DNA from: Euphorbia lathyris
Lineage: Eukaryota; Streptophyta; Magnoliopsida; Malpighiales; Euphorbiaceae
Reading direction: 5' to 3'
Assembly: GCF_963576675.1 (NCBI RefSeq)
Contig: NC_088910.1
Coordinates: forward strand, 105,862,807 to 105,926,806
Length of the DNA stretch: 64,000 nucleotides
Shown here one piece after another: positions 22,296-57,771 of the stretch; the first letter of the stretch is position 1; the number at the start of each line of letters is the position of its first letter. Made by a program: the position numbers and the translations under genes. The notes under the pieces are model-generated. The model had not been told where the DNA came from. It saw nothing but the letters and a program-made list of their open reading frames with translations, and ran no database searches.

Positions 22296-22298
22296 CTT

Positions 22299-23636
22299 GT
22301 TGGTCCCTTATAACGTTACAAGTATAGTTCCAAGGGGGGGGTTAGGAACTATTGAAAAAAATTTGTTAGGGCAGACTTCTTTTTCGTGAGAAAAAGGTTT
22401 TAACAGCGGCGCTGAGTGAATAGCAAGATACTGGCTTAGTCAACTGGTGACTAGGTCAGTTTCTTTACTTGAGTCAGAGATAACACTTAGAATCTATTCC
22501 TGAGCTCAGATATTCAATGCGCACAACTCAGATTGACCTCTTTACTTGGTCAGTTTTTGTTTAAGCAAGCAATAAATATATAAAGGAGTTTAAGGTTATA
22601 AATATGTTACTCAGCAGATTTATCCAGGTTCGGCTTCTTCTAAGCCTACGTCCTGTCCCCGGAACACGTTCCGAGATTTCGAATTCTCTACTGAGCTCTT
22701 TAACGGTAGAGCATCAAACCTTTTACAATCTTAGAAACTGAGTATAATAAGAGTACATTCCTCTATATCTCTACTCAATCCTAATCTCTCGCTGAGTACT
22801 ATAACCGAGTACTCAGCCTCTCCTTTCTAATTCTAGAAATGATAAGTGTTTGTCCTAAACAACGTTTGCTAAGACACCTTAGATGATTGAATAATCACTC
22901 TAGACTTTTACACAAAAGATATAAAATTTAGTGTAAGATTGCTTTGCTTTTTCTTGTAGAACGTTGCGTAGAATTTTGGTCAGCGTAATGGCTTGATCAA
23001 GTTCTGTGTTGAATGAAGCACCTGAAGGGCTCTATTTATAGAGACATCTGAGGCATCGATCATTTCGAATTTCGAAATAACCGTTGGAGGGAAACGACTT
23101 CCTGTCGTTGTCACCCAGTCTTGCTCAGAGCTCTTGGCCAATCAGATTTGAGTATCTTCTGTCCTCGGTCAGCTTTTGGTCAGTTCGGCAGAATGTCTCT
23201 CCATTTATGGTAAGGTCAACTAGATAACATTCTGTGTCTTCTGAACTTTACCCAAAGTGGAAACACTTTGTCTGGAAGTTGTTCTTGCTCAGCTGCTGTC
23301 TTGTACTCTTTGTCGAATCAACTCAGCAACTTCGTCCCGAAGTTGTTCCATGAAGGTCTTCTAGATCCTTCTTCCGCTGAGCTGCGTTTTGTACATAATG
23401 ACAGCGTTTTGACATACGCGGGCCGAGTTGCCTTAAACTGTTTGACTTGGGCTTTGACTTCCGTATTGGGCTTTGGGCCTTTTAATCTTTGCGTCTTATA
23501 AACAATTTAACTCAACATTGAACAAACACATTAGTAGAATAAATCAAAGCATTTAAACTTAGTGTGTTTAGAATATTTTTTAATTACACTCAAACAATTT
23601 TGTCAAATCAAAATTATGTGGAAAGGTGTTTCAACA
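22299..23636 (-). repeat. 5' LTR of Sirevirus A
   Basis: TG...CA ends, about 96-97 percent identical to the 3' LTR by hand count. The minus-strand TATA box is at 23,030-23,040. Confidence 0.95.
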
Positions 23637-34700: not shown

Positions 34701-36219
34701 GCCTCTTGTGGATGCAATAAAGAAATTTAAGGTTGCTCAAAATGCCCTAGCACAGGTTGCATGGAATTTTGTAAATGATGGGTATGACAAATTGCTACTT
34801 TAGTCTATATCCGCTTTTTATTTATTGTCTCTTCTTGATCGGGGAGATGCGGCATGTGCAGACTGCGCACATCTCTTTGCTTGCAATTTAAGCCCCACCA
34901 CATTGCGGCAGGGGCCATTTTCCTGGCTGCAAAGTTCCTCAAAGTAAAGCTCCCATCAGATGGTGAGAAAGTCTGGTGGCAAGAGTTCGATGTCAGCCCA
35001 CGCCAATTGGAGGGTTGGTGTTTTACCTTTCTTTTATATATATAAAATAAATGGATATAATAACATTTGCTGTTTACTTAAATTACATGTACCTATGGAT
35101 TTTCTCAGAAGCATGTTTGCTTCCTTCTTTCTCTCTCACCCTTCATTAACCCCATCATGGAAAAAAAGGGGTGGGGTAAGTGGGTGGGCATTGTTGGGAG
35201 GAAGAATCTGAGCCTGATGTGAACTAAAGAAATATGAAACGAGTTAGTTAATAGTTATGGAAATTTTTGTTAGGTTTACTTTAACTGTGAACTTTTATCG
35301 TGCAGAGGTAAGTAATCAGATGCTGGAACTTTATGAACAGAACCGATTACCTCCTCCTACTAACAATGAAGCTGAAGAAAGCACCTTAAGTGGGGTCACT
35401 CAGCAAACCACACCCAAAGATTCATCTGGCAAGGAAGAGCATGCAGTGACCAATAGTCATTCTCAGGCTGGAGGCATTACTTCAAGACCTGAAACCTCCA
35501 AGTCAATGTCACATGCGGATAATCCTGGTGGAGCTCAAAGAACTAGGCATGCTCAGGCAAATGAGTATGCTAGTGAGGAGATGAAAAGTGCCTCTGATCA
35601 CAACTCGGATGGTGAAGCCAAAGATAGCATCGATTCTGAAATAGATACAGTGTTTGGCTATGATGCTCGGGAAGCTCAAACTGCGTCAAGGATTACATCC
35701 CATGGAAAAGAAGATGAAGAAAGGAATTCCACTAGAAGTGAAATAAGTGAAGCTGGGGAATTAAAAGACAAACATTTTGGCCGAAGCTTGGGAAGTAGAG
35801 AAGGTACACTTGGTCAGTCACCCCAAGATGCTATTAAAAGGATTGACAAAGACAAGGTAAAAGCAGCATTGGAGAAACGGAAGAAGTCTCGGCGGGATAT
35901 AACTCGGAAAACTGACTTCTTGGATGAGGATGATCTGATTGAGAGAGAACTGGAGGCTGGTATCGAGCTAGCTGCTGAGAGCGAAAAGAATAAGAGCGAT
36001 AGGAGGCAAAACTTGTCTAGGTCCTTGGAGAGGCAAGAACATGAGAAATATCAAGAGGATGCAGGGGATAGAGAACAGCAAGGAATGCAGGAGCAATTAA
36101 GATATAAGTCAGATTTCAACCATGTTGAAGGAGGAGAAGTTCCAGATAACATTGACAAAAGTTTCCACTCCCCAAAATCAAACAACCGTAAACGGAAGGT
36201 ATGGAGCTCAGTAGACTAA
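31757..36219 (+). CDS. CYCT1: Cyclin-T (CYCT1-like), partner of CDK9-type kinase
   Basis: Six coding exons: 31757-31974, 33243-33324, 33591-33725, 34606-34781, 34862-35013, 35306-36219. All introns are GT..AG and phases match, giving 558 residues. Exon 1 has [20 protein letters not shown] and [16 protein letters not shown]; exons 2-3 the first cyclin fold ([37 protein letters not shown]); exons 4-5 the second ([68 protein letters not shown]). Exon 6 is a long charged tail with basic clusters ([16 protein letters not shown]) that may be nuclear signals. The family forms P-TEFb with CDK9/CDKC and promotes transcription elongation in the nucleus. The donor of intron 5 (GTTGGT) is weak. The TAA at 36217 seems premature: homologous tail sequence continues downstream. 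Intron 3 holds a hAT MITE. Confidence 0.95.
33895..34511. mobile_element. hAT-type element in intron 3 of the cyclin-T gene (617 bp)
   Basis: Ends CATAGTTGTGAAAGGTGCAC and (reverse complement) CATAGTTGTCAAAGGGTCAG, with a perfect 8-bp duplication AGGCTCTC (33887-33894, 34512-34519). GC-rich arms (CCTAGGCGCATTGCTCAGGC; GGCGCGCACCTGACTC) surround an AT-rich middle. The minus strand of 34,230-34,340 encodes a short acidic stretch ([15 protein letters not shown]), perhaps a remnant of a transposase C terminus. Confidence 0.9.
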
Positions 36220-37389: not shown

Positions 37390-37764
37390 TTTGGACGCTG
37401 TTGATATCCATTCTGTTCGGGGTAACTGTGAGCACAAATTTTTTCAACCTCAAAGATATGTCCATTGTTAAACTTGAGCTATAGCTTGATCCGGAAAAAT
37501 GGCCACATCACAGTACAAAGGCCGATCAGCCTTAACTGAAATTCCATGAAAGGCTGACCGGCCTTGATCCTAGAAAACATGGGGTTTGACAGGCAATTGT
37601 AGCCGTGTCAAATCCCCTTTTTTCCTTCTATAAATGGGTGTGGCGCATCAGCGTAGAGGAGATGATTTTTTTTTTTGCAGAGATTTGAGATTCACTACTC
37701 ATTATTCACAAAGATTCAGAAAAGAGAGAGAGAGAGGGGAAATAAAAAAAAGAAAGAAAAAAGT
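37390..37764 (+). promoter_or_regulatory. Promoter-like stretch split by Sirevirus B
   Basis: TATAAATGG at 37,629-37,637 follows a region with the inverted pair GGCCGATCAGCC and GGCTGACCGGCC (37,521-37,563), and is followed by a leader-like AG-rich stretch. The original sequence continues beyond the retroelement at 57,772. It could be an LTR or the 5' region of the CACTA element; neither is proven. Confidence 0.3.
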
Positions 37765-39097
37765 GTTGGTCCCTTATAACAGTGCAAGTATAGTTCCAAA
37801 GGGGGGTTAGGAACTATTTAAACTTTTTCTTAAGTTTGGGCAAACTTCTTTTCTTAAGAGAAAAGGTTTTAACAGCGGCGCTGAGTGATCAGTAAGATAC
37901 TGGCTTAGTCAACTGGTGACTAGGTCAGTTTCTTGACTTGAGTCAGGAGATAGCACTTAAAGTCTATTCCTGAGCTCAGATGTTCGATGCGCACAACTCA
38001 GCTTGACCTTTTTACTTGGTCAGTTTTGGTTATTTAAGCAAGCAATATATATAAGGAGTTTAAGGTAAGAAATACGTTACTCAGCAGATTTATCCAGGTT
38101 CGGCTTCTTCTAAGCCTACGTCCTGTCCCCGGAACACGTTCCGAGATTTCAAATCCTCTACTGAGCTCTTTAAAGGTAGAGCCTCAAACCTTTTACAATC
38201 TTAGCAACTGAGTATAACAAGAGTACCTTCCTCTATACCTCTACTCAATCCTAATCTCTTGCTGAGTACTATAACCGAGTACTCAGCCTCTCCTTTCTAA
38301 TCTCTAGAAATGATAAGTGTTTGTCCTAAACAATGATTTGCTAAGACACCTTAGATGATTAAATAATCACTCTAGACTTTTACACAAAATATATTGAATG
38401 TAGTGTAAGATTGCTTTGCTTTTTGCTTGCAGAACTTTGCGTAGAGATTTGGTCAGCGTAATGGCTTGATCAAGTTCTGTAAGTGTTGAAGCATCTGATG
38501 GCACTCTATTTATAGAGACGTCTAGGCATCGGTCATTTCGAATTTCGAAATAACCGTTGGAGGGAAACGGCTTCCTGTCGTTGTCATCCTGACTTGCTCA
38601 GAGCTCTCGGCCAATCAGATTTGTGTATCTTCTGTTCTCGGTCAGCTCAACAGAATGTTTCTCCTTTTATGGTAAAGTCAACTAGATAGCATACTGTGTC
38701 ATCTGAACTTTACCCAAAGTAGAAATACTTTGTCTGGAAGTTTTCCTTAGCCAGCTGCTGTCTTGTACGTTTGTCGAATCTACTCAGCAGCTTCATCTTG
38801 AAGTTGTTCCCGAAGGTCTTCTAGATCCTTCTTACGCTGAGTTGCGTTCTGTCCAAAGTGACAACGTTTTGACAAACGCGGGCCGAGTAATACTAAGTTG
38901 TTTGACTTGGGCTTTGACACTTGTATTGGGCTTGGGCCTTTTAATTCTTGTGTCTTATAAACAATTTAACTCAACATTGAACAAACACATTAGTAGAATA
39001 AATCAAAGCATTTAAACTTAGTGTGTTTAGAATATGTATTTTAATTATACTTAAACAATTTTGTCAAATCAAAATTATGTGGAAAGGTGTTTCAACA
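37765..39097 (-). repeat. 3' LTR of Sirevirus B
   Basis: TG...CA ends, 1333 bp, same length as its partner. Minus-strand TATA box at 38,504-38,514. Confidence 0.95.
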
Positions 39098-39197
39098 AAC
39101 TCCCCCATTTTAATGTTGGCAAAACTATTCAGCGAGGAACTCAGTATTGAGCTCCCCCATGATAGTTGACCTATTATACTTAGCAAACTCCCCCGTA
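39098..39197 (-). other. Three polypurine tracts of Sirevirus B
   Basis: GGGGGAG tracts on the minus strand at 39098-39110, 39151-39160 and 39184-39197, in the same order and spacing as copy A. Confidence 0.85.
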
Positions 39198-39627: not shown

Positions 39628-42444
39628 CTATTTCCTTTTCTTTTGTTGGGACTGACTAGACCCATGTTGTGTTCTTGCTGGTGTTCTCGCTTGTTCTTTC
39701 TCCCCCGTTTTGTCAGCATCGGGAGGAGGAATCCTAAAGCTGTCGGTTAAGACAGCCCTGGTCAGTTCGTTGGACAGCGCTTTAAGGCGGTCAGCGCTTT
39801 CATTTACACCATCAAAAATGGCAACACCCTGATTGGAGACTTCATCAGGTATATTGAGGTTGGCAGCGCTGATCATAAAGCTTCAGACTTACCAATCCAT
39901 ATAAGTGCATCAGTCAGTCCAGCAATGACTTGATGAAAGGTTTTGAGTAGGTAGGTGTCAAAGTACTGACGCTGAACATTTGTGTGACGGATGTGATTGA
40001 AGGTTTGCCTTGTGATAGACAACATCTCGTTTTGTTTCATTTGGTCAGTGTCCATCTCCTGCTTGTTCAGATTTAGCAATCGAACAGCTTCACCAATTTG
40101 CTCCACTGAGCACTGAGAGTAAGAGACCATTTTCTCATTTGTCTTGAGTTGCTCGGTGTGAAGCTGAGCAAAGAGCATCTTGACCTCAGCAGAGGTTGCA
40201 TAGCCTTGGTTCGCAGCTGACAAGTTTTGAACTTGTTGTTGTAGAGAATTCAAGTGTTGAACGATTGTCAGCTGGATCTCAGCCAGCTTGGCGATGGCGT
40301 CCTGCTTAGTTTGCTGTGTTTGATAAGTGATGATGATGTTCAGCAAGTCCTTGAATCCCTTAACTTCGTTGAGAAGCTGAGTGACCTGGGAAAGCTGAGT
40401 AGTCTCAATAGATGAAGACCCAGCAGCAAGAGGAGTGGATTGTTGAAGGTTTTTGATCAATGCTTGAACTGAGTCGATTATCCTTTTACCGGACTCAGTG
40501 GCATTCAGATAGCTTTGAGAGCCTTCAGTGACATCAGTGTGACCGGTAGGAAGAGGAGTCAAAGGAATGACATGGTCAGTGACTGGAATGGTGTTTTCAA
40601 TCTGCACTTGGTTCATATGAGTACGAGTGTGATCGGCATATAGATGAGTTGGAGAAGTAGCAACGCGAATACTGTCAGTGTTGACGGGGGCGGATATGTT
40701 TGGAGTCAGCACCATGCTTGGAATAATAGCATTTACAGTAATCGGCTCAACTTGACTGGTTGAGTTTGCGGAAGCACTTAAGTCGGCATGTTCCTGTTGA
40801 GAAGAAACAGAGGCTTGCTTTTCTATAGATGCCGCAGGTTTTCTACCAACAAATTTGAGTTTTAAGGCAGAAGGGTCTTTCGTTGGTTGTTGAACGGCAA
40901 AGGTAGGAAAAGTTGATAGTTCAACGGGAGTCTCACTGACTTCTTTCTGACTTGCCTTGATGAGTTTTCTTCTTCGAGGAGGAGTAGGAGGTTTGTCAGC
41001 TTGAATAGACTCTCCTGAGTGAGAAGGAGAGGTTTCTTCCTGATCATGATGAGGATGGTCAGCTTGCTTTTGGACTTGATCAACATTGTGTTGGTCAAGT
41101 TCTTGCTCTTCTCTAGCAGCCAACCCAGTATTGGCGTGCTCAGCTTCGATTTCACTAGCTGTCTCCTCGGAGTCAGCATCATCATTGTTCTCATCATCGT
41201 CTTCAGAATCCCCATCCAATTCTTCCTCAACTTGTGCAATGAACTGGTCGTCCAAATGCACCTCATCTTCTTGTTCCTCAGACACAGTTCCTAAACATTG
41301 TGTGTAGTGAGAGTCACTAGGCACAACGATGTTAGTAGGAATAGCATCGAGGGGAGTCAGTGTAGAAGACTTCTTCTTCTTCTGAGGTTGCTCATTAGTG
41401 TCCTCAGTTTCAGGCTCATCTTGCCTGCTCCTTTTTTCAGCTGACTTAGCAGCTGACTTCTGCCTCTTAGCTGGAGACTCAGCATCATGTGAGGTAGTCT
41501 CAACAGCTTTCCTTTTTCGGGAAGCTGGGGCCTTAGTACTTCTTCCTTTCTGTGGGATAACAGTTCCCTCAGCAGCAGCTTTACCTTTCTTCAAAGGCTG
41601 ACCGAACTTCAACGCTCTCAGCGAAGCCGCTGTGATCTCAGATCCTCTAGCTGTTTCTTCATCTGTCAGGTCTACCTGATGATCAATGAGGATCCTGGTG
41701 ATGAGCGATCCTAGCCTCAGCGTGCCAGTACTGCGTTGGAAGCCAGCGATAAGGAATACTGGCATGTTGATCGGTTTGTACGTCAGCATATGCCAGATAA
41801 AGCATTGTTCGAAGTTCGTTGCTGAGGTAGTGCAGTTGATCTTCGGATAGATAAAGTAACTCAGTAGATAATGAGCCATCTTCTGGTGCTGACCCATAGA
41901 TGAAGCTGAGACTTCTCCTGAGTGGCCCTCAGGTTTGCAGAAGTTGACCTCGTACCCAGTACCATCCTGATCTCCTTAGCCTTGCTCCCTCAGTCTTTAA
42001 CTGGAGAAAATTTCCTAGGTAGAGAGGGTTGACGAAGATGGTTTTCTCTTTCACTACTGTTACCAGATAGTCCTGGTTGTCGTCAACAACATGAAGGTTG
42101 TGGTAAAACTCCCTTACAAGGTCAGGGTAAGTAGAATCCCTAATTGAAAATAACCCAGTCCATCCATTTTATGAAATCCACTCATAGAAGGGCTGTTCGT
42201 TTTGTACGAAGGCTTCAGATACCCATCTTGAGGGCTCAACCTTCCATTCGCGGACGTTTTCGAAAACCTTTGTATAGGTCATGACTTTTTCAGGCTTTCC
42301 CTTACCAGAGGAGGTTTGGCCAGTTTTTCCTTTGCTCGGAGAGGTGACCTTGGTGGATTCCGGCATAGAGGTTTGCCTGGAAGTTTCATCGGAGCTGGGC
42401 TTAGAGTGGCCAGCACCGGAGATGTTGAAGGTAACTTTAGTCAT
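39628..42444 (-). pseudogene. Sirevirus env-like ORF, copy B, multiply broken
   Basis: Same gene as 14630-17467. The first 91 codons end at a stop near 42167 (just after YEWIS). The next segment has a frame break near 41,975, and the main open stretch 41897-39873 carries the NFEQCFIWHML domain end, basic then acidic middle and coiled-coil-like tail. A small deletion near 39,880 shifts the last 80 codons (39876-39628, PPPDADKTGEKEQ). Compared with copy A the acidic middle differs by short in-frame length changes, typical of low-complexity sequence. Confidence 0.8.
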
Positions 42445-42923: not shown

Positions 42924-45409
42924 TTACTGAAGAGGATTAAACATACCAATAGCTTCTCTCAGTATGCTGAACTGCTCACGGGCCAGTGGCTTCGTGAAGA
43001 TATCCGCAAGCTGCTCGTCCGTTGGGACAAAGGTCAGCTTTATCTCACCTTTGAGTACATGGTCTCTAATGAAGTGATGTCTGATGCTGACATGCTTCAT
43101 TCTGCCGTGTTGAATTGGGTTCTTTGAAAGATCAATTGCACTTTTGTTGTCACATTTGACTTCAATTGTCTTTATTTGAACACCATAGTCTTCAAGCTGT
43201 TGCTTAATCCATAGGACTTGAGCAACACAATGACCAGCAGCAATGTACTCAGCTTCAGTGGTAGACAAGGCTACTGACGCCTGCTTTTTACTGAACCAGG
43301 ATACAAGATAGCTTCCTAAGAAGTGACATCCTCTAGAGGTGCTTTTATGTTCCAGCTTATCCCGTCCATAGTCAGCGTCAGTGTATCCGATGAGTGTGAA
43401 ATCATGAGTATTGGGATACCATAAACCTGCATTCATTGAGCTTTGCAAATATCTAAGGATTCTTTTTACAGCAATGTAATGAGATTCCTTAAGGTTAGAT
43501 TGATATCTAGCACAGTAGCATACTGAGAACTGAATATCCGGTCTGCTTGCTGTTAAGTAAAGTAGAGAGCCTATCATACCTCGATATAATTTGCTGTCTA
43601 CTGACTTACCATTCTCGTCAGCGCATAGGACAGTGTCAGTGCCCATAGGAGTGGATATTGGCTTGCAATTTTCCAAATCATATTTCTTTAATATCTCCTT
43701 GGCATATTTGGCTTGACTGATGAAGATGCCGTTCTTTCCTTGTTTAATTTGAAGACCGAGGAAGAAGTTGAGTTCTCCCATCATGGACATTTCAAACTCA
43801 GTCTACATTTGTTTGCTAAACTCCTTGCACATTGATTCGTTAGTTGCACCAAATATTATATCATCAACATAAATTTGGGCCAGCAGGGTATCTTTACCCT
43901 TTCTCTTAATGAATAAGGTTGTATCAGCTTTGCCCCTGACATAATTTCTAGTCAGCAGGAAACTGGTCAGCCACTCATACCAAGCACGTGGTGCTTACTT
44001 GAGGCCGTACAGAGCCTTTTTGAGTTTGTAAACGTGGTTTGGGAATTTAGGGTCCTCAAAACCTGGAGGTTGATTAACATAAACCTCCTCGTTTATAACT
44101 CCATTAAGAAATGCACTTTTGACATCCATTTGGAATAATTTAAAGTTCATGTAAGATGCATATGCACATAATATCCTAATAGCTTCTAGCCTTGGCACTG
44201 GGGCAAAGGTCTCACCGTAGTCAATACCTTCTTGCTGACTGTAGCCCTGAGCTACAAGCCTTGCTTTGTTCCTGACTACATTCCCTTGTTCATCCATCTT
44301 GTTCCTGAAGACCCATCTTGTTCCAATGGTCTTTTGACTCTTTGGATGAGGCACTAGCTCCCATACATCGTTTCTTCTGAATTGATCGAGCTCCTCTTGC
44401 ATTGCGTTCATCCAGAATTCATCTTCCTCAGCATCAGCGAAGTTCTTAGGTTCCTGTACTGAGACGAAGGCTACATTGCTGAGGTACTTCCTGAGTTGAT
44501 TCCTCGTCATTAGGGTATTTCCAGCAGAATCAAGGATTGCACTTTCTGAGTGCCCTCTTGGAATCCTTATCTCTTTAGGTAGATTTATGTCTTGTGCTGT
44601 CTGTGTTTCAACAATCTCTGCAGAAGTAGATGTGTCAGTAAAAGTAATCTTAGGTTCACTCTTACTCTTGGTCAGCCTTTTCGTGAATGACTCAGTAGCT
44701 GGTTCTTGGTCAGCAGTTACTGAGTGTGGATCATCTTCGGTCAGCGGCTGGTATCTACCTGCAGGGTTAGTTTCGTCGAACTCCACATGTACTGACTCTT
44801 CTAGAACTTGAGTTCGCTTATTAAAAACTCTGTATGCTTTGCTGTTTGTTGAGTAGCCCAAAAAGATAGCCTCATCAGCTTTTGAGTCAAACTTTGCTAA
44901 ACTATCTTTGGTATTTAAAATAAAACATTTACAGCCAAAGGCACGAAAGTATCCAATGTTGGGCTTTCATCCTTTCCAAAGTTCATAGGGGGTTTTCTTT
45001 AATATAGGTCTAACTAGAGCCCTATTAAGAATATAGCACGCTGTGTTAACAGCCTCTCCCCAAAAATACTTTGGAAGCCTATGCTCATCCAGTATTGTCC
45101 TGGCTATTTCAACCAGAGTTCTGTTCTTCTAGTACCATCAAATATAACTTTTCTCCCATTGTCACATAGCTGAGCTACGCTGAGTAAGTTATATTTGAGT
45201 CCGCTGACTAGGGAGACATATTCAATAGTAGGATTACCTCCAATGGTTCCTGACCCTACTATCTTACCCTTCTTGTTGTCTCCAAAACTTACACTTCCTC
45301 CTCGTTTACGCTCAAACGTGATGAACTGAGTTTCATCACCAGTCATATGCCTCGAGCATGCGCTGTCAATATACCACATCTTTGACTTCTCGGCACATCT
45401 CAGGCTTAC
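42924..45409 (-). pseudogene. Sirevirus pol, copy B, integrase deleted
   Basis: From 45409 the frame gives the protease ([14 protein letters not shown]) and then hits a deletion junction at about 45,129: about 640 bp present in copy A (20158-20795) are missing, removing the integrase zinc region and most of its catalytic core. The rest is the integrase C terminus, reverse transcriptase (44861-43795) and RNase H (43790-42924, TDADYGRD, TEAEYIAA). Stops are TGA near 44,968, TAA near 43,997 and TAG near 43,805, each where copy A has CGA, CAA and CAG. Confidence 0.88.
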
Positions 45410-45999
45410 CTGCATTGTAACTAGTTACTTTTAGGTACCCAATTCTTTTTGGGTCCTTGCTTGTTAGGTGCAACAGGTAAAGCATCATATTTTATTTTAT
45501 GGCGACATACTTGGACAGTATGGCCATTCTTTCCACAGAAGTCACAGCTGACCTTCTGTTTAGGATGTTTCACTGACTTGTCGGCACCCCAGTGTTGAGC
45601 GTGCCAGCACACCTTAGTGGTGTGTCCTTTCTTCCCACAAAAGTCACACTGGACTTTTCGCTGGGGATTCCATCTCTGCTGAGTACCTTGGTACTGAGTT
45701 CTCAGAGGAATGTTTCTTTTATTTGGAACCATTAGTTGGTTCTCGATAGTTGTGACGTCCTTTCTCAGTTTCTTTGAAACTGATTGGACTTCAGAGACAG
45801 ACTCATGTATGATCTTCATGTTATCATGCAGAGTTGAATTGTCCTGAAGAAGGAATCTGAGGTCACTCAGTTTGACCTCTTCCACTTCGTCACAGCGCCT
45901 GCTGAGTGCTCTAACTTTCTTATTACACTTCTTGACAAGTGTGTAGAGATCACTCAGGGCATTAACCATATCGTTTCTGAGCTGGGGAAGAGTAATTAC
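45410..45999 (-). other. Candidate 590-base retained intron between gag and pol, Sirevirus B
   Basis: On the minus strand it begins AATGAG/GTAATTACTC and ends TACAATGCAG/GTAAGC. Copy A has AATGAG/GTAAGC at the same place, that is, the segment is exactly absent. Unspliced, it extends Gag by about 190 residues with a possible coiled coil (KKCNKKVRALSRRCDEVEE) and two CCHC knuckles (CDFCGKKGHTTKVC and CDFCGKNGHTVQVC), then stops at 45421-45423. Its length is not a multiple of three, so only removal joins Gag to Pol in frame. The short repeat AGGTAA at both ends also allows a simple deletion in A. Confidence 0.55.
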
Positions 46000-46491
46000 C
46001 TCATTTAATTGCTCCTCGTCATCTGATGCGACGGATAAGTCAGCATGCTCAGAACCGCACGGCTCAGCAAGTTCGTCAGCCATGAAGCATATCTTCGCTG
46101 ACTCGGTGGCCTCAGTTTCTGTAGATGAAGACTCATCACTGTCGCTCCATGTAGCCACCATTGCCTTTTTGCCGCTCTTCTTGTCTTTCCTCAGTGTGGG
46201 GCAGCTTGACTTAATATGGCCGGTTTGATGGCACTCAAAGCATGTAATGGGCTTTGAGCTGTCCTTTTTGTATTTGCTGTCGCTTGAGTCAGCCTTATAC
46301 TTATCAAACTTTCTGTAAGGCTTCTTAGAATATTTGTCATTCTTCCTGAACAGCCTTTTCATCTTCCTTGTGAACATAGCCATCTCCTCATCATCAGTTG
46401 AGCTCCCGTCAGTCGAGTCAGCTTTCATGACAAGAGATTTCTGCTTCTTGTCTTCAGATTTTTCCTTCACCTCAAAGTTTTTCATAGATAT
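45421..46491 (-). pseudogene. Sirevirus gag, C-terminal part, copy B
   Basis: Continuation of gag after the nested element C. It encodes a lysine-rich linker, the first knuckle [14 protein letters not shown], an acidic stretch (SDDEEQLNE), a helical region with coiled-coil character, two further knuckles of the CDFCGKxGH type, and a basic end (KKNWVPKSN) before TAG. Three knuckles in total, against one in copy A. Gag packages the element RNA and forms the particle. Confidence 0.85.
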
Positions 46492-48164
46492 TGATGCGTC
46501 CCCACCTAGGTTAGAGATGGGAACTCACTAAGGGATAAGTGTACCCCGTCGTTATCAAGTAATAAATTTCTGGTTTAAGTCCAGATTATCGTCCACAGGA
46601 TTTATTTCTGCAAGTACCGAGCTACTCGATCTCGGATGTTATCTAGGCTTAGGGGGTTTTAAGTTGGTTTGTTTAAATTAATCTACTCCTAGGTTGAATT
46701 ACGCTATTCCTAGCTAAGTTATCCGATTCTAACTAAGTTATTCTACGCCTAATTGAGTTACTCTACCCCTAATTAAGTTAAACTACTCCTAAGTGATCTT
46801 TTACCAATGCAATTAACCGAAGGAACATGAAGGGATACGATGATAATGAAAATAGAATGTTTAAACAATTGAATTGAAACCTAAGTCACTTGTGTCCAAG
46901 GCGATTAACCCGACCTATCCTCCTAAAGTCTCTAGTTCGTGATTCCCTTGTAAGGCCGAAACTAGCTCTAAGGCTCAGTAATTTGGGCTTAATCTTCTAT
47001 AGGGTCGTCAATCCTATAGGCACTGACTAGGTCAGATTCAGCTCGCAATATGTGCCAACCTAATTTTGGGATTATCGAATGAGTTAAACCAATCAGACAA
47101 AGCGTAAGACAAAGATTAAAACATCAAAACAATTGAATAAACAAGAACTATAATATATATCAAAGATGGAAACATTGTCACGAAGTTACAATAAACCTAG
47201 AATTCATAGCATGTATCAGAGGCTAGACAGAATATAAAAGAAGAAAAATCCCTTTCAGGGAACCTGTCTACCAATGCAGGCGTCTTTCTAGGATTTAAGG
47301 ATGAAGCTTGAGCAATCCTCGGTGAATGGAGCTTCGGAGGTGTCTTCAATGGAGGTTTGAAGGATATGGAGGAGGTGGAGAGGATTTCTCAAGGTGAAAA
47401 GCTAAGAGAATTACAAAGGAAAAAGATATCTAATTTACATTGGAAAAACTCTATTTATAGACGCGGCTCGGGCCCTTTTCTTGACCTAATTCGTGTCCTT
47501 ATTGATGTAGGAAGTCGTGGGGTCCATCGTGGCATCGTGGGGGCGAAATTGGTCTTTTTGACCAATTCCCGCAGGTCTGCTCGTCAGGCAGGGCGAGCTG
47601 CTCGGCGAGCAGGGCTACTCGCGACGAGCAGCCCCCTGCTCGCCGAGCAGGCGCCTGGCGGCCTGCTCGGCGAGCATGCACAACCTGCTCGGCGAGCAGG
47701 CACAGTGCCTGGGCAGTGCCTGGGCTGCTCGCCGAGCAGCGCCCGGGCTGCGCGCCGATGCTCAATTCGCCGAGCGACTGCCGGGGGTCCCCGAGACACA
47801 ATTTTTGCCTGAAATTGATCATGTTTTAACCTGCACACGCACATAAACTCCAAACAACATTAGTCCAAGGGCTAAATTGACCCGCCAATCGCTTATTTGA
47901 GCAAACGCTTCGTTTGGTGCGACTTTTGACGGATCAATTAGCTTCAAAAGATAACAGAATTATAATATGCATGCCATTTTGGCCGTATTTTCCTAAATTG
48001 ATCATAAAACGAGCCTAAACAACGAAAAGTAAATAAAACGTTTCCAATTTCTAACTAACTCACACAAAAGCATTTAAATGCGAGAATTGCTCGCTTATTA
48101 ACAAAATAACGCTAAAACCCGTCCTAAAACCGTACCCAAAGATAGGGGTGTTTGACCCCTATCA
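46492..48164 (-). repeat. 3' LTR of element C
   Basis: 1673 bp. The minus strand has a TATA box (CTATAAATAGAG) at about 47,451-47,462, with a GC-rich hairpin array just upstream (47,575-47,780). Frames in that array are not genes. Confidence 0.9.
47575..47780. repeat. GC-rich hairpin array in the C LTR (3' copy)
   Basis: Repeated CTGCTCGGCGAGCAG and CTGCTCGCCGAGCAG units, each able to fold into a short hairpin, with GTGCCTGGGCA repeats between them. It lies upstream of the minus-strand TATA box. The matching stretch in the other LTR is 52,055-52,255, with a different number of units. Confidence 0.85.
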
Positions 48165-50251
48165 AACCTCCTCGCACTTAAAACTTTACTTGTCCCCAAG
48201 TAAACTAAAAAAACTAAACCCGCAATCACAAGCAAGCTAGAAAACCTCCCGGTTTGACTAGGTGCTTGACACAATTTCGAGCATCTGTAATTACATGCAT
48301 TCGAAAATACAAAGTAGAGACACGATATCAAAAAGCCGCATTTCAATTATCATAGCTCATAGTTTTAAGCAAAAGGACACATGTTCAATTAAACAAGCTT
48401 GAGGGGATCGCTAAGTAAAACACCTCACCATAGGTAGTTCACTCATTTCACACAATTTTGGTGGCTAAAGTGTTTACTCTCGGCTTATGTTCTTGCTTAG
48501 GATTACGTTGATTTTGCACGTTCATCCGCGTTCCTCTACTATGCTATATGATTCCGGTGATATCAAAAACAGCCTCTAATCGGGGTTGTAATGTGGTTAG
48601 AGGGTTAAAGGTACAACAAGGGTTAATAGTTCTAGCGCTACAAAAACTAAGTTTAAATGGCTTTAGCAAATATGAAGTGACTGAGCTTTTTATTCATCCC
48701 TTATTATTTTCTTTTTGGGATGTTTTCTTGAGACGTTTTTTATTTTTAAGAACTGGGGAATGAAGTTCTTCCCTTTTGTTCGTCTCTTTTCTTTGCTTTT
48801 TCTTTCTTTTTTTTCTGTTTTTCTCTTTTTTTTCTCTTTTTGGGATAGTGATGCTCATTCACTTCTTAGCCTTTTGGCTTGCTACTGTAATGCCATAAAC
48901 AAAGATAAAGCGCTAGAAGAAAACAAAGGCTATATTTGAGCTTTGCACAAGAAATTGGGTTAAGTAGCAAACCAAGTTGTGGTTTGCAAAAACAGGTTAG
49001 AACGAAAGAAAAATCTATAAACTACAAAAATATAGGCTCAAAGGGGCTTCCTAGAGTGGATGAAAAAGAAAAAATAAGGTAAAGAAAATGGTTAATTCTA
49101 ATGAGGCTGATTCATCGTTTATCATCTCAAACCATCACATGTAGGTTCAACACAGTATTAGGTGCAAAATCTGTAATCTTCCACAAGTCAAAGCTTTCAC
49201 ACAAAAATGTCAAGAAAAAGAGCTTTTTGATGTTCGCTCTTAGACTCAAATTCAACTCACAATTCTTTGGGTTTCAATTTTGTGTTTACTAGTTTTCCCC
49301 AAACTCAAGTTTAATGTCACATGCCTTCGATTCTTAAGTTATCTACCTAAGTAATGATTTTAGCATTTCTTCAAAAGTAGGGTCTAAATGCAAACCTTAG
49401 CTCATGCTTTTACAGATACAAGAGTTATGTCCCACACCTAAACTAGTTGTCATGCAATTTTAGATTCGGTTCTCAGCCCTCAAAGACAAATAACGAAGTT
49501 TAGATTCGAAGGAGGTTCACGGTTTTAGGTCCTAAACATGCAAAACCTAAATAAAACCGGAAAACGCAAAACTAAACTAGACACGACGCAATAAAAATTT
49601 AAAAATTATACAATTTTTATAAGTTTGTCTACCCCTCCTCCTCACACTAAAAATATGCAATAAGTTCCAACATTGCATCACAAACCATAGAGTACAAGTG
49701 CAAAAAGTTAGGGTGGAGAAGACAAATTACTGATTTTAGCGCAATCGCCAAAAGCTTGACGATTTGCGGTGGCAAATTTTTATTATTATTATTATTATTA
49801 TTATTTATTTATTTATTTCAGCTTCGTTCGGGAAAAAATCCCGAACTGCTGCTTATCTCGGCCGAGCAGCGGGCTGGGCGCAGTGTCCAGCGGCAGGCTG
49901 GGCGCAGTGCCCAGCGGCGGGCTGGGCGCCTGCGCCCAGCTCGCGGCGAGCAGGGCCTCCTGTGGCCAATTTTTTTTTTTTTTTTTAAATTTTATTTTAA
50001 ACCTGAAAACTTTAAAATAAAAATAAATAAAATAAAATAAAAGAAAACTAAACAAATAAAAAAAAATATTTATTTATTTTTTTTTTTTAAACGAACACTT
50101 TTAAAAAAAAACGTAAAAGAAAACTAAAAAGACTAAACTAAAAGATCAATGTATAATCTAAATAAAACAAACCTGAAAGTTTTATTAAAACTTGGGTTGC
50201 CTCCCAAGAAGCGCTACGTTATAGTCGGTGAGCTCGACATAGAATTCCCGC
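48165..50251 (-). other. Non-coding internal region of element C
   Basis: No long frame. It holds a polypurine tract next to the LTR (minus GCGAGGAGGTT), AT-rich spacer, a (TTA/TAA)n run at 49,780-49,820, a GC-rich hairpin block at 49,855-49,965, and on the minus strand CTTCTTGGGAGGCAACCCAA at 50,190-50,210, a phrase common in plant gypsy elements. It has T-rich stretches on both strands. Confidence 0.7.
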
Positions 50252-50767
50252 CTAGGTGTATGCTTCTACTCGCGTTAGGAATTCAAATTCCTGAATAAAT
50301 AATCCGTACCTGCAAAACGGATTATCAGTTTCAAAGAATTTTAATAAAAACAACGGATAAAATTTAAATAAGTTATGAAAAAATTTAGTTTGCTCCCTTT
50401 TTGATTCTCTTGGTAAATCAAAGAGAATGGAAATTTCTGGACTTGGAGCAAAACCGAACTCTTCTATTTTTGGATTCTTCTCTAGAGGCTCAATTTCAAC
50501 TGATTCCTCAATTAATATTGAAACTTTCGGTTTCTCATAATTAGGGATCAGTTTTTCATTGTTAATGGGAAAAGATATTACCTTATCAACCTGACCTACC
50601 AAATTGGGTTCTTTAATTGATTCGTCCGCGGTTGAATCAACTAGGATCCCTTTTTGTATGCATAAATTTTTAATTGAGGCATACAAATCGTCAGTTTGAT
50701 CTTCGTGAGTAGATAGAAAGTTAAGCAAATGCGTAATAGACTCCTTATTTCCATTGTTTCTAGCCAT
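50252..50767 (-). CDS. 171-residue ORF of element C, unknown
   Basis: The only substantial frame in element C, about 180 bases inside the PBS. Starts MARNNGNKESITHLLNFLS. The protein is mixed-charge with E/K-rich middle (LIEESVEIEPLEKNPKIEE) and an aromatic C-terminal part (FFHNLFKFYPLFLLKFF). No zinc knuckle, protease or polymerase motif. It sits where gag would start in an autonomous relative, so it may be a Gag remnant or a leader protein. I do not recognise it. Confidence 0.45.
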   Translation of the reverse strand: MARNNGNKESITHLLNFLSTHEDQTDDLYASIKNLCIQKGILVDSTADESIKEPNLVGQVDKVISFPINNEKLIPNYEKPKVSILIEESVEIEPLEKNPKIEEFGFAPSPEISILFDLPRESKREQTKFFHNLFKFYPLFLLKFFETDNPFCRYGLFIQEFEFLTRVEAYT

Positions 50768-50948
50768 TTTCTCAAAAAAGAAGAATCATTAGAAATAACA
50801 ATAAAAATTAGAAACAAATATTCACAAAAAGAAAAGTATAAAGGATTATATATAAACAAGTATAGACGATTATAAACAAAGGATATTCACAATGAATGCC
50901 TAAACTAACAAATCGACCTTTGGTTCGATATTGCAGAAGAAATAAATT

Positions 50949-50964
50949 CCCGGCAACGGCGCCA
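50949..50964 (-). other. Primer binding site of element C (Asp-tRNA type)
   Basis: Minus strand TGGCGCCGTTGCCGGG, six bases from the 5' LTR. This is the PBS used by Athila/Tat-like Ty3/gypsy elements and fixes orientation. Confidence 0.9.
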
Positions 50965-52054
50965 AAAACTTCATGTGTCCCCACCTAGGTTAGAGATGGG
51001 AACTCACTAAGGGATAAGTGTACCCCGTCGTTATCAAGTAATAAATTTCTGGTTTAAGTCCAGGTTATCGTCCACAGGATTTATTTCTGCAAGTACCGAG
51101 CTACTCGATCTCGGATGTTATCTAGGCTTAGGGGGTTTTGAGTTGGTTTGTTTAAATTAATCTACTCCTAGGTTGAATTACGCTATTCCTAGCTAAGTTA
51201 TCCGATTCTAACTAAGTTATTCTACGCCTAATTGAGTTACTCTACCCCTAATTAAGTTAAACTACTCCTAAGTGATCTTTTACCAATGCAATTAACCGAA
51301 GAAACATGAAGGGATACGATGATAATGAAAATAGAATGTTTAAACAATTGAATTGAAACCTAAGTCACTTGTGTCCAAGGCGATTAACCCGACCTATCCT
51401 CCTAAAGTCCCTAGTTCGTGATTCCCTTGTAAGGCCGAAACTAGCTCTAAGGCTCAGTAATTTGGGCTTAATCTTCTATAGGGTCGTCAATCCTATAGGC
51501 ACTGACTAGGTCAGATTCAGCTCGCAATATGTGCCAACCTAATTTTGGGATTATCGAATGAGTTAAACCAATCAGACAAAGCGTAAGACAAAGATTAAAA
51601 CATCAAAACAATTGAATAAACAAGAACTATAATATATATCAAAGATGGAAACATTGTCACGAAGTTACAATAAACCTAGAATTCATAGCATGTATCAGAG
51701 GCTAGACAGAATGTAAAAGAAGAAAAATCCCTTTCAGGGAACCTGTCTACCAATGCAGGCGTCTTTCTAGGATTTAAGGATGAAGCTTGAGCAATCCTCG
51801 GTGAATGGAGCTTCGGAGGTGTCTTCAATGGAGGTTTGAAGGATATGGAGGAGGTGGAGAGGATTTCTCAAGGTGAAAAGCTAAGAGAATTACAAAGGAA
51901 AAAGATATCTAATTTACATTGGAAAAACTCTATTTATAGACGCGGCTCGGGCCCTTTTCTTGACCTAATTCGTGTCCTTATTGATGTAGGAAGTCGTGGG
52001 GTCCATCGTGGCATCGTGGGGGCGAAATTGGTCTTTTTGACCAATTCCCGCAGG

Positions 52055-52255
52055 TCTGCTCGTCGAGCAGGGCGAGCTGCTCGACGAGCAGGGCTACTCG
52101 CGACGAGCAGCCCCCTGCTCGCCGAGCAGGCGCCTAGCGGCCTGCTCGGCGAGCAGGCATAGTGCCTGGGCAGTGCCTGGGCGGTGCCTGGGCGGTGCCT
52201 GGGCTGCTCGCCGAGCAGCGCCCGGGCTGCGCGCCGATGCTCAATTCGCCGAGCG
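52055..52255. repeat. GC-rich hairpin array in the C LTR (5' copy)
   Basis: Same CTGCTCG(N)CGAGCAG units as 47,575-47,780, but one palindrome fewer and extra GTGCCTGGGCG repeats. Most length differences between the two C LTRs fall here. Confidence 0.85.
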
Positions 52256-54094
52256 ACTGCCGGGTGTCCTCGAGACACGATTTTTACCTGAAATTGATCA
52301 TGTTTTAACCTGCACACGCACATAAACTCCAAACAACATTAGTCGAAGGGCTCAATTGACCTGCCAATCGCTTATTTGAGCAAACGCTTCATTTGGTGCG
52401 ACTTTTGACGGATCAATTAGCTTCAAAAGATAACGGAATTATACTATGCATGTCTGTTAGACGAGGTGTCGCGGTCTAATCTCCCGGGCGGACCGGGGGG
52501 TGGACACCTCATGGCAACGTAAGCGGTGATTGGCGCCGAAAGCAACCAATCGTGGAATCAAGCTGCTCGGCCGGACCGGAGCTCGGAGATATGGAAGAGT
52601 CGCCACCCACGAATGGGAAAATGAACACCGATCCCTTGCGGGAGACCGGTGTGGGTTCGGGAAACTTAGGTACGAGCCGAGAAGGCTAGCTCCTTTCCGG
52701 AGAAAGGCTACTAGGCACCCCGATATCGCCCGGTTATGAACCATCGGCCTCCTACTCAGCATGTTAGGCGATAACGGACTAATCGTATACTTCTTTAAGT
52801 TTAAAATTCATTTGAAACCTTTTCTTTCTCTTTTTGGAAACCGTTTTGAGCATATATTATTGAAAAGCCACATTAGTAAAGAATCACCCATTTATATTAT
52901 ACATACACAGAGAAGGGGGAAGAAAGAAGTGATTTATTTACAACTTTATTTAAATGTCATGCTGTGTGTTTATTCTATGCTAACTTATTTCCCCCCAAAA
53001 CGAGTTTATTTACGTGGTTCGCACCTTAATCGCCGTTGGAACGATTTAGGTGCGTTTTAAAACCGCGATTGGTGAAGTTTACTCGAATCGCCGTTGGAAC
53101 GACTCAAGTGTTTGAAAACGTTTGAGATAAAAACCTTTAGTAAGAAAACGTGGTTAAACATACAAGTCCATTTTATTTTGTACAAATTCTTTTGAGAAAA
53201 TGGTTCAAAATATTCGATTATTCACAATGAAAATGATTTTAATTACAAGGTTCACTTAATCCGCCTTTGGAACGGATTAAGGTTTTAAAACGTGGTGTTT
53301 TGAAAACGATTTGAAATATTAACAAAACAACTATATTTATTTACATTAGGAACCTCTAAAAATTCATTAGTTTAAATAATTAAATTGAAAACTCTCTTTT
53401 TGTGATTTATTTTCTCCTTTTATTTAATGGACTCTCTACCTATTATAATTACAATAATAAACCCATTTAAACCAAGATTCACTCCCAAATAAAGCCCATT
53501 TGAAACATGGACCCATAAATGGTCCAAAAGAATAAAGAAAATAATTTAAGCATATATATATACATTCAAATCAAAAAGAGAATATGAAAATAAAAGTTAA
53601 TAAAAAGAAACTATATAATACATATATGAAAATACTAGATATAATACATTTATACTTTAAAGAGGTGGAAATAGTAAATAAATCTCATTAGATAAGAAAA
53701 TAACATTTATCCAAAATAGTTTCATATAATAAACAATAACATAACCCAAATATCCCAAAACTATATATATACATAACTAATATAGTTTTAAATACCAAAA
53801 ATAACATATATCCATATACTAATACTTACTAATTAGTTCCCAAAATGCCCAAATAAATAACCTTTTAAAATAGAATCTAATATAACTCAAATGAATAAAA
53901 AAAGAGAATATATATATACATATACCCATGCTTAAAAAATTGAATAAAAAATGATATATAAACATCACAAATAATTATATATACCAAATGTCTAACAATA
54001 GTTTGAAAATATATATTACATAAATATACAAAGGACCAAAAGCCTAGAAGTTAAGAAACAGGGACCAAAACCGCATTTTTTACATTCCAGCAGA

Positions 54095-54121
54095 TTTACC
54101 GACGGAAAATCCGTCGGTAAA
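54095..54121. repeat. Perfect 12-bp hairpin inside LTR D
   Basis: TTTACCGACGGA, three A, TCCGTCGGTAAA. Similar CCGACGGAAAATCCGTCGG words are common in CACTA-type subterminal repeats, so this may be a borrowed fragment or coincidence. Confidence 0.8.
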
Positions 54122-54787
54122 CAGCAATCAGTGACAGAAAAGGAAAATTACGGCAGCACTCCAATTGTTTCCAGATTTATTCAAAAGCTTTAAATTAAAT
54201 CTAATTCAATCGTTTTGGATTTCCGAACTACCAAAAATGGATCATAGTCAATAACGGAAGTTCCTAAAACAACGTTTTTATTTTAAAACATTATTCGGAG
54301 ATTCTTTTAAATTAAAACTTATAGTTACAACGTTTTTAACACCCGAACTACCTTTTTATCGGATCACGGTTCGTATTGGGATATCAAAACCAGGTTTTTT
54401 ATTTTAAAGCAAAACCGAATTTTATTCAACACGAGACGGGAATTAAATAAATACGAAAAATTAAATAAAACGTGATAAATAAATAAATGACAAAATAAAT
54501 AAAATTATAACATAAAAATAAATAAAGGAAAAGAAATAAATAAAATAAAACGAGTCTAGTCCTCGGATAATACCTCAAGTTCGGTATCTGACAGTCGAAG
54601 CCGATTGATTCCACGAGTCGTGATTTTCCGGTTTTTTGTGTTTTTTTAGTAAAAATTTAACTTTGGGAAATTCAGAATTTTTGAGAAAAAAAATATTTTT
54701 CTCAAAAAAATTCACTTTCTCTCTCTAAAAATGTTTAGAGTGAGAAAGGCTCCAAAATTCCTCTCTCAAAATGCATGGGGATCCGTG

Positions 54788-54796
54788 CCTTTTATA
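54788..54796 (-). promoter_or_regulatory. TATA box of LTR D
   Basis: Minus strand CCTATAAAAGGCACGG; GC-rich hairpin array directly upstream on that strand, AT-rich transcribed leader downstream. Confidence 0.6.
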
Positions 54797-54814
54797 GGCA
54801 AACGGGTCCCCGGA

Positions 54815-55020
54815 CCAATGGGCGACGCCCGAGTAAAATCGGGCGTCGCCCAAAGGGTTGGGCGGCCGCCCAACCTCGCGTTGGGCTACCGCCCAACGAT
54901 TGTTGGGCGATCGCCCAACGGTTGTTGGGCGGTCGCCCAACAGCGTTGGGCGAGCGCCCAACCGTCGTTGGGCGTCCGCCCGACGCGGTTGGGCGCTCAC
55001 CCAACGGCCGCCGGGGCGCG
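54815..55020. repeat. GC-rich hairpin array in LTR D
   Basis: Seven consecutive 16-base near-palindromes of the form TTGGGCGNNCGCCCAA (exact palindromes: TTGGGCGGCCGCCCAA and TTGGGCGATCGCCCAA), spaced about 22-25 bases, preceded by a longer hairpin GGGCGACGCCCGA...TCGGGCGTCGCCC. Arms are conserved and the middle varies. Confidence 0.9.
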
Positions 55021-55400
55021 TCTCGCACCATCGGGCGCCATGCCCCGCGACCGTCGAGCTCATGTTCCGCGCCGTCGGGTGTCCACGTGTCGTGACCACC
55101 GGGCTTGCGTTCCGCGCCGTCGGGCGCCTACGAGTTGTGACCGCCGAACGTGTGTTTCGCGCTGCCGGGCGCACACGCCCCATGGTCGACGAGTGCGCGC
55201 ACCGCGTTGCCAAGCTCGTGCATTGCTCGGATGTCAAGCTCGTGCATTGCTCGGATGTCAAGCGCGTGCTATTCGTGGTTGGACGCGTGCGTCCGACGAG
55301 CGTCGAGCGCGCGCTTTGCGTCGTCGAGCGGGTGTCCGACTGTCGTCGAACGCGCGTCGGCTGCCGCTAAGCACTCGCACTACGCACATCACAACAGCGA
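55021..55400. repeat. GC-rich degenerate repeat zone upstream of the D hairpin array
   Basis: Many near-copies of GCGCCGTCGGGCG and a 22-base direct repeat of CTCGTGCATTGCTCGGATGT at about 55,218-55,260. High GC produces long frames on both strands rich in R, A and P; none resembles a protein. Confidence 0.7.
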
Positions 55401-55701
55401 CCCACTGTAACTTATTTATTTTATTTTTTTCGAAACTTCCGGAATCAATCGCTTCAACCGTCTTGTTTTCAGGTTTTCATCACAGGTCCTCCGACTCGGT
55501 GTCTACAATGCCATTTTGGCCGTATTTGCCTAAATTGATCATAAAACGAGCCTAAACAACGAAAAGTAAATAAAACGTTTCCAATTTCTAACTAACTCAC
55601 ACAAAAGCATTTAAATGCGAGAATTGCTCGCTTATTAACAAAATAACGCTAAAACCCATCCTAAAACCGTACCCAAAGATAGGGGTTTTTGACCCCTATC
55701 A

Positions 55702-56435: not shown

Positions 56436-56438
56436 CTT

Positions 56439-57771
56439 GTTGGTCCCTTATAACAGTGCAAGTATAGTTCCAAGGGGGGGTTAGGAACTATTTAAACTTT
56501 TTCTTAAGTTTGGGCAAACTTCTTTTCTTAAGAGAAAAGGTTTTAACAGCGGCGCTGAGTGATCATTAAGATACTGGCTTAGTCAACTGGTGACTAGGTC
56601 AGTTTCTTGACTTGAGTCAGGAGATAGCACTTAAAGTCTATTCCTGAGCTCAGATGTTCGATGCGCACAACTCAGCTTGACCTTTTTACTTGGTCAGTTT
56701 TGGTTATTTAAGCAAGCAATATATATAAGGAGTTTAAGGTAAGAAATACGTTACTCAGCAGATTTATCCAGGTTCGGCTTCTTCTAAGCCTACGTCCTGT
56801 CCCCGGAACACGTTCCGAGATTTCAAATCCTCTACTGAGCTCTTTAAAGGTAGAGCCTCAAACCTTTTACAATCTTAGCAACTGAGTATAACAAGAGTAC
56901 CTTCCTCTATACCTCTACTCAATCCTAATCTCTTGCTGAGTACTATAACCGAGTACTCAGCCTCTCCTTTCTAATCTCTAGAAATGATAAGTGTTTGTCC
57001 TAAACAATGATTTGCTAAGACACCTTAGATGATTAAATAATCACTCTAGACTTTTACACAAAAGATATTGAATGTAGTGTAAGATTGCTTTGCTTTTTGC
57101 TTGCAGAACTTTGCGTAGAGATTTGGTCAGCGTAATGGCTTGATCAAGTTCTGTAAGTGTTGAAGCATCTGATGGCACTCTATTTATAGAGACGTCTGGG
57201 CATCGGTCATTTCAAATTTCGAAATAACCGTTGGAGGGAAACGGCTTCCTGTCGTTGTCATCCTGACTTGCTCAGAGCTCTCGGCCAATCAGATTTGTGT
57301 ATCTTCTGTTCTCGGTCAGCTCAACAGAATGTTTCTCCTTTTATGGTAAAGTCAACTGGACAGCATACTGTGTCATCTGAACTTTACCTAAAGTAGAAAT
57401 ACTTTGTCTGAAAGTTTTCCTTAACCAGCTGCTGTCTTGTACGCTTGTTGAATCTACTCAGCAGCTTCAGCTTGAAGTTGTTCCCGAAGGTCTTCTAGAT
57501 CCTTCTTACGCTGAGTTGCGTTCTGTCCAAAGTGACAACGTTTTGACAAACGCGGGCCGAGTAATACTGAGTTGTTTGACTTGGGCTTTGACACTTGTAT
57601 TGGGCTTGGGCCTTTTAATTCTTGTGTCTTATAAACAATTTAACTCAACATTGAACAAACACATTAGTAGAATAAATCAAAGCATTTAAACTTAGTGTGT
57701 TTAGAATATATATTTCAATTATACTTAAACAATTTTGTCAAATCAAAATTATGTGGAAAGGTGTTTCAACA
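56439..57771 (-). repeat. 5' LTR of Sirevirus B
   Basis: 1333 bp, TG...CA, nearly identical to 37765-39097. Minus-strand TATA box at 57,178-57,188. Confidence 0.95.

Follow-up and report, generated by a model that had tools for sequence, protein, structure and literature searches.

Sireviruses are major components of plant genomes and make up about 21% of maize (PMC3599292). They were described as elements of about 10.5 kb with LTRs of about 1.28 kb and several identical polypurine tracts before the 3′ LTR (PMC2829016). For Sireviruses which carry gag and pol in different frames, the route to Pol was described as unresolved (PMC5009743, PMC2829016). In the Ogre elements (Ty3/gypsy) of pea and Medicago, an intron is located between gag-pro and pol, and the spacer averages 274 bp (PMC6317226). 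With the barley element BARE1, DNA copies of the processed RNA could not be amplified (PMC3735527), and nanopore studies of sunflower and triticale have reported spliced short GAG isoforms. A literature search in accessible texts, with most subscription papers outside its scope, gave no report of gag/pol splicing in a Sirevirus.

Two Sirevirus copies and the 590-base segment

The window, i.e. the whole stretch of DNA that was analysed, comprises 64,000 nucleotides of Euphorbia lathyris (NC_088910.1, positions 105,862,807 to 105,926,806). Two Sirevirus copies, named A and B, were delimited in it. The features are given below, with splice sites ranked by weight matrices.

12751-23636, minus strand: copy A, a Sirevirus of 10,886 bp in which the segment is absent
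18645-22235, minus strand: fused Gag-Pol open frame of copy A, 1196 aa, with an early end
21074-21075, minus strand: join of copy A, AATGAG/GTAAGC, Gag fused in frame to Pol
15299-17467: open reading frame of copy A located 3′ of pol, 722 aa
37764-57771, minus strand: copy B, a Sirevirus that keeps the segment and is disrupted by a nested element and by a deletion in pol
45421-46485, minus strand: 3′ part of copy B gag, an open frame of 354 aa located 3′ of the nested element
45410-45999, minus strand: removable segment of 590 bp with GT..AG borders, which encodes the C-terminal third of Gag in frame 0 and includes the gag stop
45994-46002, minus strand: donor GAG/GTAATT, second of 82 GT sites in 46485-44900
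45733-45990, minus strand: coiled-coil-like predicted helix, Gag residues 166-251 of P0001
45607-45648, minus strand: second CCHC knuckle, CDFCGKKGHTTKVC
45505-45546, minus strand: third CCHC knuckle, CDFCGKNGHTVQVC
45463-45467, minus strand: CTAAC, branch-point-like, its A at -55 from the acceptor
45407-45424, minus strand: acceptor CTAGTTACAATGCAG/GTA, first of 144 AG sites
45421-45423, minus strand: gag stop TAG
45413-45415, minus strand: pol-frame ATG, 5 bases past the gag stop, a possible reinitiation route to Pol
45130-45409, minus strand: start of pol in copy B; relative to gag, its frame is -1 (+2)

Copies A and B were inserted separately, each with a 5-bp target duplication of its own, read from the flanks as GAAAC for A and AAAAG for B. 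The LTRs of copy A (22298-23636 and 12751-14089, 1339 bp) differ by a K2P distance of 0.032, and those of copy B (56438-57771 and 37764-39099) by 0.012. Copia Gag and Pol domains were detected in both copies (Retrotran_gag_2, gag_pre-integrs, Pol_BBD and RVT_2). In length, LTR size, 5-bp target duplication and the presence of an open reading frame 3′ of pol, copy A corresponds to a Sirevirus. The Gag of copy B shows the Sirevirus layout, being large with a central CCHC knuckle and a coiled coil downstream; the downstream part is missing in copy A. In both copies the polypurine tract ATGGGGGAG occurs twice within 81 bases 5′ of the 3′ LTR, and a GGGGGAG tract is also found further upstream. Directly inside the 5′ LTR of both copies lies a primer-binding-site-like sequence, TGGTATCAGAGC, which we take to be a match to tRNA-Met. 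On these sequence features, the family is assigned to the Sireviruses (SIRE lineage, Ty1/copia). The open reading frame 3′ of pol in copy A matched PF20167 (Transposase_32, putative plant transposon protein), and its counterpart in copy B (39873-41897) gave no Pfam match at 0.01. Two plus-strand open reading frames, 35257-36219 (320 aa) and 54731-55555 (274 aa), gave no Pfam matches at 0.1.

The gag gene of copy B is broken by a nested LTR element (46492-55701, target duplication GATAT, plus strand). About 3 kb of DNA, in which GC-rich tandem repeats occur (54841-55269), interrupt the second LTR of the nested element and leave it in two parts (50970-52452 and 55508-55701). Copy B is also devoid of about 637 bases of pol at 45128, corresponding to 20158-20794 of A in the GAG-pre-integrase to integrase region. 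The join of this gap shows a 3-base GGA/AGA overlap and no GT..AG borders, which rules out splicing at that place. It is an ordinary deletion beside the splice-type one. With the nested element and the pol loss, copy B is thus a relic. Comparison of A and B gave Ka/Ks values of 0.14 and 0.11 in gag and 0.03 in early pol, so Gag and Pol are under strong purifying selection between the two copies. A step in silent divergence at the A/B join was considered and discarded, as other bins vary as much.

The borders of the segment were read directly. Copy B carries 590 bases between gag and pol with the borders GAG/GTAATT and TGCAG/G, its letters being ...CAATTAAATGAG/GTAATTACTC...TTACAATGCAG/GTAAGCCTGAG. 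Exactly these bases are missing in copy A, where ...CAATCAAATGAG/GTAAGCCTGAG is read across the join 21075/21074. Both observations agree with an earlier reading made from the sequence only. When the letters past the AG were left unscored, the acceptor ranked second of 145. Among 29 copies retaining the segment in the genome, no donor column from -3 to +5 deviates in more than one copy, and position +6 varies in 16 of them; coding constraint may explain part of this conservation. The segment displays GT-AG borders with good site scores, but neither the U-richness nor the polypyrimidine tract found in most plant introns. Its T content is 22.4% vs 20.2% and 27.0% in the flanks, i.e. not enriched, and no T-rich tract was found before the acceptor, where the T count is at the median.

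Two further observations concern the boundary. The strongest donor of the region (CAG/GTAAGC) lies directly after the acceptor at 45409. We take this acceptor-then-donor arrangement to resemble a recursive splice site, and the donor might serve a further subgenomic RNA. The RNA of 45340-45480, over the gag/pol boundary, folds better than shuffled sequences (-40 kcal/mol, z -3.1); this may be related to the inverted repeat that has been reported where gag and pol of Sireviruses meet.

Retention of the segment gives a longer Gag with a coiled-coil-like part and two further knuckles of the type CX2CX4HX4C, as the sequence-only reading had stated. The predicted helix is continuous and begins 3 residues past the first residue of the segment (residue 163); its 10-residue blocks have pLDDT values mostly of 87-96 (the first of 71) within a model that is poor as a whole (mean 57.8). 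The Gag encoded in the segment ends with GPKKNWVPKSN, and its TAG was read at 45423-45421, 11 bases before the segment end. Gag homologues from Cephalotus (P0004) and from ENA (P0005, P0006) have the same layout of knuckle, acidic linker, coil, knuckle and WVPK. The best protein match, P0003 of Striga, is a model which ends soon past the border. By comparison with these homologues, the segment is the ordinary C-terminus of a Sirevirus Gag. Since it is conserved in the Gag of other plants, copy A lost the segment; a gain by B from an A-like ancestral state is ruled out. The presence of E/K-V at the donor was also considered as a conserved signature, and it was found to be too weak (8 of 10 homologues vs 4.3 expected by shuffling).

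Gag reads GAG/GTA and pol reads GTA/AGC, which corresponds to phase 0 at both borders. With 590 being 2 mod 3, retention of the segment places pol in the -1 (+2) frame, and only removal of the segment fuses Gag to Pol in frame; in copy A the frame is indeed open across the join, as had been claimed. The length is 2 mod 3 in 26 of the 29 retained copies, with variants of 590, 593, 605, 587 and 581 bases. In 16 retained copies of 590 bases, pN/pS was 0.26 in the Gag frame vs 1.03 and 1.06 in the others, hence purifying selection acts on the segment as a part of Gag when it is retained. Ten of the 29 are open to the stop 11 bases 5′ of the acceptor; in the other 19, an in-frame stop occurs earlier in the segment. 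Read within windows of 233/300 codons, 26 of 70 joined copies are open over at least 200 codons before and at least 250 after the join, and the same flanks are open in 12 of 29 retained copies.

Joined and retained copies in the genome

The genome of E. lathyris (1,020,260,654 bases) was searched with patterns allowing up to 3 mismatches. The joined form gave 218 matches and the retained acceptor 5026, so that joined copies make up about 4% of the matches; reversed (backwards) control patterns gave 0 in each search. The genome search for copies with and without the segment, recommended in the sequence-only reading, thus returned 218 joined places, with at least several separate origins among the 70 that were studied. 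These 70 consisted of the 30 exact matches first in contig order (C1-C4) and 40 hand-picked copies, 20 of them with one mismatch. Their border is exact in 67 of 70 (single substitutions in the other three), which is partly by construction as they were found by the join pattern. The retained sample was formed by 30 of the 5026 matches, all from contig C1 and all exact at the acceptor, and the donor was located in 28 or 29 of them.

The joined pattern detects this join only, and the search for other joins covered four named places. The region has another strong acceptor at 45843, whose site fits in 22 of 30 retained copies; joins to it were found 0 times in the genome, and cryptic splicing to that acceptor is rejected on this count. 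Among 99 copies, the flanks of 600-900 bases showed 72 gaps of at least 40 bases in 14 copies, mostly in unalignable flanks, and only one of these gaps was repeated (69 bases at offset 199 before the join, in L054 and L085). No relatives were found in the viral and genomic contig collections that were searched. Three near-identical joined copies (L025, L026, L027) lie within about 0.5 Mb of contig C4 and are probably a segmental duplication.

Separate trees were built for the flank before the join (30 joined, 28 retained copies) and the flank after it (30 and 30). The before-join tree required 18 label changes vs a shuffled mean of 19.5, at least 9 of them forced by well-supported branches. 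The after-join tree, in which the bootstrap had not settled, required 17 vs 20.2, at least 7 forced. A single clade of joined copies was found in 0% of 200 bootstrap trees. A quick tree of 98 rows (69 joined, 29 retained; L002 dropped and three long-branch rows kept) gave 24 changes vs 25.4 in shuffles, at least 9 forced. A single joined clade was rejected by AU tests (p 1.2e-5 and 2e-95) on reduced sets of 28 joined and 25 retained copies. Of the joined loci, only the first 30 were offered to these tests, and nine loci were excluded once the first trees had been viewed, on account of flanks that could not be aligned or lay on long branches. In these reduced sets, the before-join tree showed 16 changes vs 18.0 (4 forced) and the after-join tree 14 vs 18.0 (2 forced), with 20 of 500 shuffles as low; joined copies are somewhat more clustered there. 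Some joined copies, for example L024, L018, L005 and L030, cluster in both of the first two trees. Joined lineages appear able to multiply, and their Gag would probably be supplied by retained copies.

Haplotypes gave a similar picture. Across 70 joined and 29 retained copies, 12 of 48 upstream haplotypes of 36 nt were found in both forms, as were 5 haplotypes spanning both sides of the join, and joined copies carry both letters of the 12th base downstream. Confinement of the joined form to one insertion clade, which had been named beforehand as evidence against the splicing hypothesis, was not seen in this sample, neither in the trees nor in the AU tests. The precise loss of the segment has several, and probably many, origins; the label changes may be gains or losses, and recombination may contribute to them.

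Probable splicing of a coding segment, and the alternatives

An exitron is a coding segment inside an exon that is alternatively spliced. The 590 bases are coding, and under selection at the protein level when retained. The explanation that we favour, with a probability of about 0.8, is that the segment would be a coding exitron spliced from some of the genomic RNA, and that spliced RNA would have been repeatedly reverse-transcribed. Its core, precise GT..AG removal followed by reverse transcription of processed RNA, had been proposed from the two copies, and is now strongly supported by the genome counts, the trees and the repeat controls described below. The spliceosome is the likely remover. 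Several observations weigh against the exitron explanation, namely the T content and the missing T-rich tract, the AGGTAA shared by both borders, the restriction of the joined pattern to this one join, the lack of joins to the acceptor at 45843, the somewhat stronger clustering in the reduced sets and the earlier stops in 19 of 29 retained copies.

In the proposed mechanism, a conserved Gag-coding stretch would double as an alternatively removed GT-AG intron. Unspliced RNA would give full-length Gag, ending at the stop just 5′ of the acceptor. Splicing would take out the gag stop along with the coiled coil and two knuckles. Since the segment measures 2 mod 3, its removal would also fuse the rest of Gag to Pol in frame. 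Spliced RNA would sometimes be packaged and reverse-transcribed, and proviruses devoid of the segment, such as copy A, would have arisen in this way on many separate occasions. The spliced RNA would then presumably represent the Gag-Pol message, and it is plausible that partial splicing sets the ratio of Gag to Gag-Pol.

A wider proposal is made tentatively, as we would give it somewhat less than an even chance. Sireviruses of this type might decode Pol via splicing out of a Gag-coding exitron, with one RNA giving Gag when unspliced and, when spliced, a Gag-Pol devoid of the coiled coil and two knuckles, and the reverse-transcribed spliced form might seed standing fused Gag-Pol proviruses which need full-length Gag from retained copies. 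In favour of the exitron explanation, gene models of Escallonia (P0019) and Fagus (P0017), both predicted proteins only, join at the homologous K/VCL and E/VCL, respectively. Against it, among 12 gene models of other plants bridging gag to pol, this join is present in only 2 and different joins in 10.

The alternative which survives best overlaps with the exitron explanation and denies the regulatory role only. Splicing would be real but a cryptic by-product, Pol would be reached by reinitiation or frameshifting, and the joined copies would be non-autonomous relics. We regard this as possible, if doubtful. The pol-frame ATG at 45415, only 5 bases past the gag stop, offers a start for reinitiation, and recoding, internal entry or bypass have been proposed for Sireviruses (PMC2829016). 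The small proportion of joined matches and the removal of a part of Gag that is under purifying selection also fit with a by-product. On the other side, retained copies conserve both the letters of the donor and the offset of 2 mod 3, and a by-product would need neither. Coding constraint on Gag and Pol may explain part or all of this conservation.

The exitron explanation was also weighed against a recurrent deletion in DNA or during reverse transcription, through template jumps from the AGGTAA repeat of one border to that of the other, with the GT..AG being incidental. This deletion, already raised as a rival in the sequence-only reading, still stands in principle and is weakened by what follows, so that we consider it unlikely. 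The 6-base microhomology is present at both borders and extends to AATG(C)AGGTAA, the 637-base pol deletion of copy B illustrates that a loss of similar size without splice borders occurs in the family, and the composition of the segment is not intron-like. However, three longer direct repeats of the same region gave 0 products each vs 218 for AGGTAA, namely one of 8 bases that shares its upstream copy with the AGGTAA pair, one of 10 and one of 7. A caveat is that two of the three products would be without Gag-Pol fusion and could have been removed by selection, while the 7-base one does fuse. In the 30 retained copies, the flanks of these controls agreed with the patterns in 30, 26 and 27 cases, and both repeat copies were exact in only 18, 14 and 23 of 30, respectively, vs 26 of 30 for AGGTAA. 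A GT..AG parse was obtained for only 76 (2.4%) of the 3126 repeats of 6-8 bases that were sampled across the window, and the AGGTAA join carries the best acceptor of the region. Of 17 repeats in copy B spanning from the gag stop to early pol, one parses as GT..AG, namely the AGGTAA one. Microhomology alone is disfavoured by the repeat controls. An overlap of 6 bases is not strange for splice sites, as at least 6 bases are common to donor and acceptor in 4 of the 38 consensus-like pairs of the window.

LTR elements recombine. One founding loss, however made, could have reached many backgrounds later on, when co-packaged RNAs recombined. Some joined copies do cluster, and their mean diversity in the 150 nt before the join is lower than that of retained copies (0.166 vs 0.228; 0.075 vs 0.085 after the join), these being ungapped distances with unalignable rows included. 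Third positions of A and B differ at 21 of 81 sites just before the join and at 9 of 93 just after it. Against this, joined and retained copies have at least 12 upstream haplotypes of 36 nt next to the join in common, and joined copies show both letters at the 12th downstream base. A single founder would have required numerous crossovers over a span of tens of bases, and we consider spread from one founder highly improbable. A deletion of single origin without recombination is ruled out by the trees and the AU tests.

Comparison with described elements

With the E. lathyris family, a splice-type join that restores the frame is fixed in hundreds of genomic copies, and the question of how Pol is made is directly testable in existing RNA data. 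The family resembles the known out-of-frame Sireviruses by its large Gag with central CCHC knuckle and coiled coil, and by a pol that is out of frame at the boundary (PMC2829016, PMC5009743). In the published Sireviruses, pol lies in +1, a conserved inverted repeat is present, and recoding, internal entry or bypass was proposed. Here, in contrast, pol lies in -1 (+2) and is brought back into frame when a GT-AG segment is removed. If the homologous E/V donor and V-C/S-L acceptor were used in other eudicots, this could provide a general answer to the puzzle of the Sirevirus gag/pol frames.

In EVD/ATCOPIA93, another Ty1/copia element, alternative splicing at the gag end (shGAG) also leads to two coding outcomes (PMC8892269, PMC12786077). 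The polarity is opposite, as the spliced and prematurely ended RNA of EVD gives Gag alone and the unspliced RNA gives Gag-Pol. BARE1 of barley (Ty1/copia) likewise has a small alternative intron at the gag end, which shifts the frame into pol (PMC3735527). In BARE1, however, the spliced form gives Gag only, and the intron is of 104 nt and U-rich (37.5% U) (PMC3735527). Unlike in BARE1, the DNA alone suggests here that the processed RNA of a plant LTR element can often be reverse-transcribed.

Ogre shows the same polarity as proposed here, since retention ends translation early and splicing of a subset of the RNA gives the whole polyprotein (PMC6317226). The two differ in that Ogre is a Ty3/gypsy element with a spacer between its reading frames, whereas the present family is a Ty1/copia element of the SIRE lineage, in which 590 bp of Gag-coding sequence under selection are concerned. 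They differ also in that hundreds of genomic copies of the processed form are present here.
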